Assembly: GCA_013115135.1 (NCBI GenBank)
Contig: JABANP010000201.1
Location: forward strand, 23,761 to 87,760
Reading direction: 5' to 3'
Length of the DNA: 64,000 nucleotides
Origin: Perkinsus olseni
Taxonomy: Eukaryota > Perkinsozoa > Perkinsida > Perkinsidae
Shown here piece after piece: positions 25,410 to 59,727 of this stretch. The notes below the pieces were generated by a model. It saw only the letters and a program-made list of their open reading frames with translations. It ran no database searches and was not told the origin of the DNA. How positions within the stretch are numbered: the first letter of the stretch is position 1; each line of letters begins with the position of its first letter. The translations under genes and the position numbers were made by a program.

Positions 25410-28400
25410 TCATTGCTGCCCCTTCTCGTGAAGGTCATAATACACACCTCTCTTGGAGATGAGCTCATCATGAGTACCATTCTCAACAACCCGGCCTTCA
25501 GATATGACGATTATTTTGTCAGCCTTTCTAATGGTCGATAGTCGATGGGCTATTACTATGGTAGTGGGCTTGTCACCATGGACTGATGATGTAAGATTAT
25601 CGATGGCCTCCTGTACGATGGCCTCAGACGCGGAGTCCAATGCTGATGTTGCCTCATCTAGCATGATCAACCTACCATTGATCGAGTCAGCGAGTAACAG
25701 TAGTGGTAGTAGTAGTACCTCGGATTCCTTATCAGGGCCCTAGCTATGGCAACCCTCTGTTTTTGACCACCAGATAACAATCCACCTCGCGGTCCCAATG
25801 GTGCATCCCATCGAACTTTAACACCGGCAAAGTCGGCCATACCGGCCTTATCAGCCACCTCTAGCAAGCCCTCAGTTGATACATCTTTCGAGACTCTGAA
25901 CAGCGAAAATGACCGCCAAGGAAGATTAGACGAGGTTCGATGACACTTACCCGTATGTAACATTATCCCCAAGACTGAGGTCGAAGAGTACGGGTTCTTG
26001 AGATACCACACCGCATTGTGACCTCCACCAGGATACATTAACAGCATTGAGATCAGCCGACTCGAGGTATATCTGAACAGGGTCGAGTATTGTTGCACTA
26101 GCTGATCATCATAAAATCAGCAGCAACAACAGGACTCACTCTCCCAGCGTCGGGGTCATAGAATCTCTGCAGCAAGGCGAATACGGTGCTCTTGCCTCCT
26201 CCACTAGGGCCGACCAGCGCAACCGTCTGACCTGCTGGGATCTCCAAATTGAGACCCTTGAGTATCTGATGAGCAGCAAGACGATACTAGAGAGTGGCTC
26301 ATCGAAAGGTTTGATGCTGACCTGAACTTCTGGTCGGTGAGGATAGGCAAAGTCCACTCCATCGAAGACAATCTTCACATTAGTATTATTAGCATAATCA
26401 TCATCAACCTGTGGGATATATTCAACTACAGTGGTAGCAACAGCCTACATTGAATATGCTCGCCTTCCTCCCATCAGGACATAAGGGATCACACGCACTC
26501 TGCCGATCGAGAAGCTCGAAGATATCATGAGCCGCAGTACGAGCTTCTTTTATGTCTCGCGTGAAGGCCAAAGCCTGAAAGGACATTCGTATGCCAGGTT
26601 ATAGAGCATGTGTTATCACGCTACCTGACCGATGCCCAACGCAGACAAGAAGACGCCCATAACGGCTTGAAGCATCTTGTCGAAAGCCAACCCCTCCTCA
26701 TCGATCAACACCGCACCATACCAAAAGCCCAGTGCGAGGGCACCGAACATCATGATGCTTGACATTCCATAGAAGAAGCCAGAAACGAAAGCCCTCTTAC
26801 TGTGCTTGCTCACCGACTTCATGATCAACATTTCGAACCTGAAGGGTCACCACAATAGTAACACCTCTCACATATTGATCTGAGTACTACAGGTCCCGGG
26901 TTCGAACCTCGGCAGTGAGAGCTCTCAGCGTCCGAAGATTCTGGACAGCCTCTGAGGCTATCTGATTAGCCTGTCCCGACGAGTCATCTTTCTTGCCAAT
27001 ACCATCCCCTCCAACATTCACCATCATATCCACCGCCCCTACAGGAGAGAAGATCTCCGGTTCTATTCCCACACCATGCATTATTCCCCTACCAGCTGCT
27101 GCCAATAGTGGAAGAGTTGCCAACATAACAGCAGCCAACTTCGGTGAGGCCGAGAATGATATTATGACACCGGCGATTGCAGTAGCAGCCAGCTGAGCAA
27201 ATATACCTGAGGGGAGTTGATCGAACAGAAAACGCCGGTGACTCTTGGCCATCCTACCTAGCTGGGTTCCAGTGAGGACATTCAATTTCAATGCGTAAGT
27301 GCCGAGGGTGGAGGTAAGACGCCCGGGAGCATGAGCAGGATCGTCGAAGTAGGCTATCTCCTGATAATGATGATGATAATAATGATTTGGACTGGACTCA
27401 GTAGCCTCTACTACTTGTCGTAACATCTTGCCGTAACATGCCGTCCGCACTCTCTTAGTGAGATGTTCACCAATGAATGCGAAACCCCAAAATTGCCCGA
27501 CATTACCCAGTGCAATACCAATGGCTATACCAACGAACCTGAAGGAGAAAGGTGTCATCAGAGGCTCGAACCGGGGACCTAACGCTACCCTAAGCTCGTC
27601 CGTACAATGCCATCCATCATACTGTCCACATCGGGATCGAAGAAGTACTTGAGGGCTTGCGCGAGGAGAAGGGCCTCCAAGGGCATGGCCACCCCCGACA
27701 GAATCGCCCCCAGGATTGATGGGAGGTAATAGGCAAACTCGGGCTTAGACAAACCGAATAGTCGCAACCATGGGACCTGATGATGGTGAGGTGCACCGGA
27801 CTGACGAGAGAAGAGACGGCGAATCACTCTGTATGTTTTTGAGATCTGCTCAACACGCTTCTTCTCCTCGGCTTCCTCATCCACGGCAAAATGTTCATTC
27901 TCTACAAAAACTGCCGAGCCTGTTGATTTGGCCGCTGCCGATTGAGCACGTATGAGACCACCATCACTCACTACACTGGATGTGCTGATAACAATAGCAT
28001 GAGCATCATCATCATCATCATCATCATCATCACAGGCTACAGGCTCCCATAATTACCTTCGATGTCTGAGTGGGAGCATACCCGCATGAGCAGTAGAACT
28101 AGCTGCCGCAGCGGCTTCCTGTGCCGAGACCAGAGCATAATAGACGCCATTAGGGCGACCTGAAGTGGAGGATGATGCAGACACCAGCGATGGTCGAGGA
28201 TGATGTTACCTATTAGGTCATGATGTGTCCCCGACTCGACAAGTATTCCGCCCTGCATGACGAATATTATGTCGGAGTTCCGAACTGTAGAGAGACGATG
28301 TGCAATTGAGATGGTGGTGAGACCGGATGCTTTTTGAAGTCTGAAAGGATATACCCCAATACTCTGATGATGAGCAGCCTACATGGACCTTACTTATCTA

Positions 28401-58392: not shown

Positions 58393-59727
58393 TCATGAGC
58401 ATGCTGCTGCCAACTCCTTTCTGAGGAGTTGAGCTTTCTCCTTTTCAACAATAGCAGCTACACGCGGTTCCAAACCAGTACCAGCCTGCTGCTCATCATC
58501 AATCGGAGGAGAAGACTTGGTGGTTGAGAAGATCTTCGATAGATTAACCTGCGTAGATGTATACTCCCAGCGCACAGCACATCGTACCACACCTCCCAGC
58601 CTTCGTAGGGCTCCTCAATCCCCTCTAATCGGTCTGTACCAAATGATATGGCCTGAGCACTTCAAGCGTTATCGTGATTCCTCTCGCAGTGCTACTGACC
58701 AGAGGGGTTTGCTGTAGTCACTACAATTTGATAAGAGTTGGGGGATGAGTGGTATCGCAGAGGTGGTTGGGAAGAGGTTGGCTCGAAGGAATGATGTAAA
58801 GGCTTTCAGGCCACCATCTCCACCTCGCAGTGAGAGGGATATCAATGATGCTTGCTGATGGTTACATATCGATCTGTGAATGGTAGTCGATCAGTGCTGA
58901 TAGAAGGGAGAGACCTTAATGCATCAAGAAGCCTTCGAGCATGATTCGGATCCATTATTTCTGATAGTCGATCGTGCTTAGTAGCTGCCATCAGTATTCG
59001 CGGTGCTGCTGCAGCACTATGAGAAAACCTTCGAGAGGATCTTATGCGCCTAAAGAGCAAATATGGTCACCAGTACCACAGTTGCAGCTCTTACCACTCG
59101 AAGACCATCCATTGCTCCTGAGTAGATGCTACTAGGTTGCGACAAATCCACCACCACTACCACTACAATGTTGTTGAAGCGACGGCTGATCTGTGATGAT
59201 AATTCGATTGATATGGTGACGCTTCTTACTGGCTCGAACAGCTGCCATGCGGTTCTGCTGGGGCCCGCGTCGAAGAGATGTGCCTAGAGTCACAGGCTTC
59301 AAGACGAACGCTAGAGAGCTCGCACCACTTCAGTACCGCCTTTTTCTACGGATGCTAGCTGCCGCCGAACGTAGAAGTATCTACAGACCGAAAGGTCCCC
59401 GGTTCGAATCCTACTCGAGGTACTCAATGGCATTTGGCGTGGGTTCAACGTCGGGTAGTATTCCTCGATGTTGATCGTTTGATGTAAATTTAGAGAACCT
59501 GGCCACATGAGTTGACGAGAGGCTAGCTTCAACTTCAGATACTTGTGGATCAGGGATGTCTTACCACTACCCTTGCTGCCAATGAACACGGCAGCGGTGG
59601 TGCTGGGGCGGGGAGCGTGGCGACTGTCTGAATAGTCCTGAGACGAGCTGTGAGCAGCAGAGCATGTTGAAAGTATGGATACTTGTATGAGTTTATCCCA
59701 GATGAGCTGCTGCTGGTGTTGCTCCAT
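58393..59727 (-). CDS. DYNC2LI1: Cytoplasmic dynein-2 light intermediate chain (intraflagellar transport)
   Basis: The N-terminal exon (ATG 59727) has QLIWDKLIQ and the P-loop AVFIGSKGSGKTSLIHKYL (about 59600-59545), very like the GSKnsGKTtlil.fl of D1bLIC/D2LIC. An EYTF-like EYL motif follows near 59425. A later exon reads FNNIVVVVVVDLSQPSSIYS (about 59185-59125), equal to the family's ivLVLDLSkPn.lw. Then ILMAATKHDRLSEIMDPNHA (about 59005-58945) matches the ..gtKyDlf.d.dpe segment. The C-terminal exon ends LEPRVAAIVEKEKAQLLRKE with TGA at 58393-58395. This subunit is part of the retrograde intraflagellar transport motor. It is convergent with CFAP44. Several exon borders remain unresolved, including the acceptor after the tRNA-like intron that starts at 59414. 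Confidence 0.75.
59346..59414 (-). other. tRNA-like intron start, antisense (dynein-2 LIC; acceptor tentative)
   Basis: The intron begins GTAGGATTCGAACCGGGGAC then CTTTCGGTC. The complement GACCGAAAGGTCCCCGGTTC then GAATCCTAC is a tRNA variable loop, T-arm and acceptor-like end. The donor at 59414 is clear, while the acceptor (possibly CCGTAG) is a guess. Confidence 0.65.

Follow-up and report, generated by a model that had tools for sequence, protein, structure and literature searches.

Perkinsids are close relatives of dinoflagellates. In the latter, including Polarella and Amoebophrya, and likewise in Micromonas and Aureococcus, introners have been described, i.e., repeats that act as spliceosomal introns in many genes, and in the passages cited those of the dinoflagellates are treated as transposon-like (PMC7789003, PMC11453091); in Amoebophrya the introners carry repeats of both kinds, inverted and direct, and their splicing motifs are non-canonical, as far as the cited part of that report goes (PMC7789003). 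Two further systems are related by their tRNA-like or splice-site content: human nimtRNAs (nuclear intronic homologues of mitochondrial tRNAs) are, in the cited excerpt, tRNA-like sequences in introns (PMC7722341), and in mammals copies of Alu and other short interspersed elements (SINEs) provide splice sites for exonization, according to the excerpt cited (PMC2394776). Here we analyze a 64,000-nucleotide stretch of the Perkinsus olseni genome (contig JABANP010000201.1, positions 23,761 to 87,760; C115:23761-87760 in our numbering; hereafter the window), in which short introns are built around a sequence that resembles the 3′ part of a tRNA.

Compared with introners, the Perkinsus element is distinguished by GT-AG ends, tRNA 3′-end geometry, occurrence in both orientations and strong heterogeneity, and, unlike in Amoebophrya, no direct repeats were detected in 23 elements. 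With tRNA-derived SINEs it shares a B box, a variable loop, a T-run of the RNA polymerase III (Pol III) type and, in few copies, a properly spaced A box; however, it is mostly devoid of the A box and the 5′ half, measures ~45 nt and has the role of an intron. Whereas nimtRNAs are called intronic in the source excerpt, and so lie within introns (PMC7722341), the Perkinsus piece makes up most of the intron, and whereas Alu/SINE exonization as summarized in the cited text makes exons (PMC2394776), the Perkinsus element makes introns. In function the element resembles an introner, in appearance the terminal 3′ part of a tRNA-derived SINE, and it misses a defining feature of each, i.e., a target-site duplication was not found and the A box is mostly absent. 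We file it as a form of transposon-like intron gain. In open-literature titles and abstract openings, neither introners of tRNA or SINE origin nor any introners of Perkinsus were found described, which does not establish absence from print.

The core of the element, AAAGGTCCCNGGTTCGANNC, matches the window 12 times at up to three mismatches, where 0.04 matches are expected from shuffles, and GGTTCGANNC has 17 exact matches (1.33 expected), palindromic sites being entered on both strands. Perkinsus proteins were aligned to the window with a purpose-written splice-aware aligner. An ab initio gene finder trained on long open reading frames suffered from weak codon bias and runaway intron calls and was replaced by this spliced protein alignment. 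The first-pass annotation of the window had listed nine independent introns with such cores, two sense and seven antisense, and this list is borne out. The introns measure 43–56 nt; six of them, together with two ABC transporter duplicates, have exact positions from the spliced alignment of Perkinsus proteins, and the remaining three (53297, 38124 and 59381) are placed by reading of exons and frame. The introns and further core copies are:

27539..27588, minus strand: intron of 50 nt in ABC transporter copy 1; core sense; spliced alignment to Perkinsus chesapeaki protein P0121
28660..28703, minus strand: intron of 44 nt in ABC transporter copy 1; core antisense; spliced alignment to P0121
33789..33838, minus strand: duplicate of the 27539 intron in ABC transporter copy 2; spliced alignment
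34901..34944, minus strand: duplicate of the 28660 intron in ABC transporter copy 2; spliced alignment
38124..38173, minus strand: intron of 50 nt in a putative sphingomyelinase-like gene; core antisense; open spliced frame
41325..41376, minus strand: intron of 52 nt in acyl-CoA synthetase copy 1; core antisense; spliced alignment
50999..51054, plus strand: intron of 56 nt in a CFAP44-like gene; core antisense; spliced alignment to P. marinus protein P0241
51196..51247, plus strand: intron of 52 nt in the CFAP44-like gene; core antisense; spliced alignment
53297..53341, plus strand: intron of 45 nt in the CFAP44-like gene; T-arm GGTCTCGGGTTCAATCCC sense, with T-run; end read from frame
53501..53552, plus strand: intron of 52 nt in the CFAP44-like gene; core antisense; spliced alignment
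59381..59423, minus strand: intron of 43 nt in a putative dynein-2 LIC-like gene; core antisense; open spliced frame
26889..26908, plus strand: core copy at an exon/donor border of ABC transporter copy 1; exonic in the alignment; adjoining intron 26839-26890
33139..33158, plus strand: core copy at an exon/donor border of ABC transporter copy 2; exonic in the alignment; adjoining intron 33092-33140
40064..40083, plus strand: core copy with T-run; gene context not resolved

At 38124..38173 the spliced frame is open for 109 codons (..ALEYTG/GFVPSE.., the slash marking the junction) and at 59381..59423 it reads ..NAIE/YFYVRR.., the residues being read as plausible in both cases; the names of these two genes are taken over from the first-pass annotation and are putative. 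For the intron at 53297 the aligner drew a longer form, 53297-53377, whereas the reading frame puts the end at 53341, and the intron 53501..53552 starts with GTAGAAAA, i.e., the reversed T-run. The cores at 26889 and 33139 are not intronic in the spliced alignment, where they are exonic up to the donor edge (GACCT/GTA). Protein homology across the junctions, seen in the window alignment and, elsewhere in the genome, in Pfam domains, supports the claim that such segments are introns. The window introns fit the intron length and GT-AG usage of P. marinus, for which the cited part of the source gives a median intron of 49 and 99.3% GT-AG in the annotation (PMC7789003). The two ABC transporter genes (window 26000-37500) are near-identical and in tandem; each is predicted to have 29 introns within its aligned portion, and (ATC)n/(GAT)n repeats occur around some introns.

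The B box is also enriched in the window introns. At up to one mismatch it occurs in 12 of the 88 window introns of up to 60 nt that derive from spliced protein alignment, whereas shuffling of the introns gives 1.66 and exon 50-mers give 3 among 273; three of the 12 belong to the duplicated ABC copy. Exact B boxes number five in the 88 introns, 0.1 in shuffled introns and none in the exon 50-mers. With ten matches at up to two mismatches in 64 kb, the window is core-rich relative to the genome average of ~24 per Mb, and window frequencies must therefore not be extrapolated.

Genome-wide (61.48 Mb in 968 contigs, with the reversed pattern as control), the predicted enrichment of the core is very large: 769 + 717 = 1,486 matches at up to two mismatches, a count that includes a few true tRNA-Arg genes, against 4 + 2 = 6 for the control. 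Exact 17-mer B-box cores number 691, and a 27-mer with the GTAATCG start has 175 + 120 matches at up to three mismatches, with none for the control. A search with the ends alone (GTAATCG, 28–36 free bases, CATTTTTA), in which the core is not part of the query, gave seven matches, six of which contain the core and are all exactly 45 nt long, and one of which is without it; the six correspond to four independent cases (two near-duplicate pairs), and four of the six have GGATCGA in place of GGTTCGA. The repeat unit is thus ~45 nt long, with its middle recovered by a query that did not contain it, and this search supports fixed ends; the start of the unit, GTAATCG, resembles a splice donor. Across 63 copies, almost no sequence is shared upstream of the GTAATCG-like start and none beyond the T-run; this set comprises the window cores and 30 loci of the first listed exact matches, which are not random, with three duplicate ABC2 rows removed. 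P. olseni carries a large, heterogeneous family of short, probably tRNA-derived sequences, mostly consisting of the 3′ part.

Copies outside the window likewise lie in introns. Ten spliced proteins from ten loci, chosen as recognizable conserved families, were scanned with Pfam, and in eight of them domains span the junctions, 11 in total (three in protein kinase, two in TPP enzyme and one each in zinc ribbon, ammonium transporter, poly(A) polymerase, L7Ae, Sec1 and ketopantoate hydroxymethyltransferase); two gave no domain. tRNA-3′-like introns of ~45 nt are found in at least 12 ordinary genes examined, in both orientations, and the window introns together with the Pfam-supported junctions uphold the earlier view of a recurrent intron class in unrelated genes. 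The listed set holds 20 introns, 11 sense and 9 antisense, and because these are chosen introns the ratio is no estimate of orientation. Where GTAATCG itself does not open a sense intron, the start is formed by a variant of this heptamer, or it falls up to 13 nt upstream (SEC1) or within the core (KIN_b). Antisense introns have their donor at the 3′ end of the piece, read in reverse, for which GTAGAAAA at 53501 is an example, and their acceptor is a YAG that coincides with the 5′ end or lies past it. A GT[AG]...YAG segment of 38–58 nt encloses 40 of 52 cores (up to two mismatches, 30 loci), as compared with 39% of random places, and subtraction of this background would put roughly 60% of those 52 cores in introns of that form. 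When splice sites may be chosen freely, a test for open frames discriminates weakly (52% of 64 cores versus 34% of control places at 400 nt). The paralogous kinase genes L022 and L067 share at least two of the three T-arm introns of L022 (one antisense, two sense), and the paralogues L028 and L029 have 30 identical nucleotides up to the core end, followed by an unrelated stretch.

When the core is given tRNA numbering, the T-run begins at position 74, where the terminator of a tRNA gene begins, and the likeness to a tRNA 3′ end that the first-pass annotation had recognized is thereby supported. The first TTTT falls at positions 72–75 in 23 of the 63 copies, with a peak of 14 at position 74, whereas random places give ~0.4% per offset. 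At the tRNA distance, the T-run pattern has 403 + 386 = 789 matches genome-wide and none in the control; moved by 5 nt, it has 33 + 34 = 67 matches, with 3 in the control. A Pol III-type terminator after the tRNA part is present in many copies, not in all. From 100 listed rows of the 789 matches a set of 88 sequences was formed, the other 12 rows being five exact repeats of included rows and seven that represent five further sequences. The T-arm made of the commonest base at each position of this set, CCGGG-TTCGATC-CCCGG, pairs at five of five positions, most 5′ positions being fixed by the search pattern and positions 51 and 62–65 being free; position 51 varies freely among copies.

Some copies extend into the 5′ half of a tRNA. 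An A box at up to one mismatch is found anywhere upstream of 16 of 133 cores, as compared with 4.4% of control places, and at tRNA spacing, 33–34 nt before the core, in seven copies besides one true tRNA-Phe gene; the seven amount to six independent ones, L084 and L092 being paralogues. A strict A-box pattern, TGGCNNAG, matches 11 places genome-wide, a small number beside the 691 exact 17-mer cores, four of them with tRNA-like length, i.e., C162 and a small family formed by C250, C468 and C521. The three members of this family have an A box, a B box and a T-run, and may represent a full-length parent type. L012 contains an 83-nt intron whose removal leaves an open frame and which is a candidate for a full-length tRNA-like form. 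Full-length tRNA-like sequences exist, and 3′-only copies dominate among those examined.

Comparison of paralogues bears on how the introns arose. One ammonium transporter gene has a 46-nt intron that splits a codon in a conserved stretch, where three paralogues (60–70% identity) are uninterrupted, with no residue lost or gained. Among the acyl-CoA synthetase genes, copy 1 has the intron 41325..41376 and copies 2 and 3 lack it, as judged by alignment and paralogue DNA, and P0001, a deposited P. olseni protein, continues across this junction without a break. When the translated 41344-43083 frame is used as query, an acyl-CoA synthetase deposited for Perkinsus olseni matches 63% of it at 100%, and other Perkinsus proteins come next. 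Judged by these alignments, the transporter and synthetase patterns point to probable intron gain. The three synthetase copies stand in tandem (window 41000-49300) and have 3, 4 and 3 introns, the tRNA-like one in copy 1 only.

On balance, we favor a short tRNA-derived, SINE-like family that has repeatedly been inserted in coding sequence and is spliced out as introns of ~40–56 nt. A family with tRNA geometry is present in protein-supported introns, and its element would correspond to the anticodon-loop end, variable loop, T-arm, acceptor 3′ strand and Pol III terminator of a tRNA gene. Copies would have landed repeatedly in coding sequence and would be removed as introns of that length. A copy in sense orientation would use its own GTAA at the anticodon-loop end as donor and the T-rich end plus AG as acceptor. 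For a copy in antisense orientation, a GTA-type donor would come from the acceptor/terminator end, now reversed, and the acceptor would be a YAG located at the 5′ end of the piece or past it. The source may be a Pol III-transcribed tRNA-like parent element, and insertion may proceed by 5′-truncated reverse transcription with endogenous reverse transcriptases; the genome has at least 150 matches to domains of such enzymes, many in open frames of >1000 codons. A further-reaching proposal, which we put forward tentatively, is that Perkinsus has a standing intron-making process that copies the 3′ ends of Pol III tRNA-like transcripts into genes, with the anticodon-loop end and the terminator doubling as 5′ and 3′ splice sites, and with one family supplying hundreds to thousands of introns in both orientations.

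Several observations weigh against the favored interpretation. TTTT is lacking in the stretch examined in 37 of the 63 copies, and among the 11 listed sense introns only five start at GTAATCG itself (TPP_b, KIN_c, PAP, L7Ae and PANB) and only five have TTTT before the acceptor AG. The 5′ half is absent from most copies examined, and an A box at tRNA spacing is rare. In neither the 63 copies nor the 88 sequences do the T-stem pairs 49-65, 50-64 and 51-63 match better than permuted partners; independent decay of one paired ancestor would account for this, which a mixture of intact tRNAs would not predict. Position 66 is random while others are conserved, however, and simple decay of one ancestor leaves that unexplained. 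An Rfam search of 26000-60000 at E 10 gave no tRNA, its two matches being at chance level and neither a tRNA. The uninterrupted transporter paralogues have long open frames (310–532 codons) and may therefore be intron-poor copies, in which case loss is possible. No target-site duplication was detected in the 23 elements, the longest direct repeat being 3.57 versus 3.64 when permuted, and nothing links the reverse transcriptases of the genome to the tRNA-like element.

Among the alternatives, an introner of another type, e.g., a non-autonomous DNA transposon, whose 45-nt consensus is tRNA-like by coincidence, is unlikely. It would accommodate copies without an A box, T-stem pairing that is not kept in single copies, and the sharp ends and short fixed length seen in the ends-only search, but it has to take the B box, the variable loop, the T-run at 74, the paired consensus T-arm and the exactly spaced A box of some copies all as coincidental, and the missing target-site duplication speaks against it too.

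The first-pass annotation had likened the introns to different tRNA families (Val, Phe and Glu), and independent capture of the 3′ halves of many tRNAs, e.g., as cDNA or as filler at DNA breaks, would be a general form of this idea. The T-arms of the introns include GGTCGGCGG, as in the T-stem 5′ strand of the tRNA-Thr genes of P. olseni, and GGTCTCGGG; a minority agree with one T-stem strand of a real tRNA, as KIN_b does with that of tRNA-Thr, and the missing target-site duplication would suit break repair. However, different tRNAs would bring different but matched T-stems, and the lack of covariation in both sets therefore favors one family and counts against the proposed origin from Val, Phe and Glu tRNAs. 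None of the tRNA genes seen, a part of the full set that includes Arg, Thr, Ile, Ser, Phe, His, Leu and other genes, has the exact core, the nearest being some tRNA-Arg copies with 2–3 mismatches from the core, and the GTAATCG start and the T-run recur in many copies, whereas a mature tRNA is without the T-run. Capture from many tRNAs is thus quite improbable, and one heterogeneous, decayed tRNA-derived family fits the copies better, although from these sequence matches a mixed origin may apply.

That the B box is a selected functional motif of ordinary introns, such as a TFIIIC site, a splicing enhancer or a branch-site helper, is very improbable: the core does recur in introns whose other parts differ, as in L028 and L029 beyond the shared stretch, but the likeness spans ~45 nt with fixed spacing and a T-run, 76 of the 88 homology-supported introns have no B box at up to one mismatch, the introns are absent from paralogues, and the two tandem L7Ae copies show two differences within the core (one at a pattern-free position) and two just before it, a comparison weakened by a stop codon in that exon match of the second copy.

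True tRNA genes are distinct from the introns in the window, where tRNA gene calling and Rfam gave no tRNA call at any of the introns and only two calls were made in total:

5560-5633: true tRNA gene, Arg (CCT)
24081-24162: true tRNA gene, Ser (CGA)

Long tandem arrays of tRNA genes occur on contigs C823, C778, C179, C154 and C172 (loci L046, L059 and L060), with units of ~150–185 bp (Arg-TCT, Ile-TAT, Thr-TGT and Lys-like), and on C172 a pair of tRNA genes is repeated every ~1.2 kb; the Lys and Asn identities in the arrays were read from anticodons. The window also contains an uninterrupted 821-codon frame at 20488-22953 with a CD36-family match at its end.

The origin of new spliceosomal introns is a long-standing question, and our analysis indicates an unusual source of them in Perkinsus, a parasite of molluscs. 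If true, a tRNA-like family whose Pol III parts provide the splice signals would represent another kind of intron source, simple in mechanism and operating in two orientations. Because tRNA geometry is recognizable, old copies can be detected and counted, and intron gain therefore becomes directly testable across Perkinsus species and isolates.

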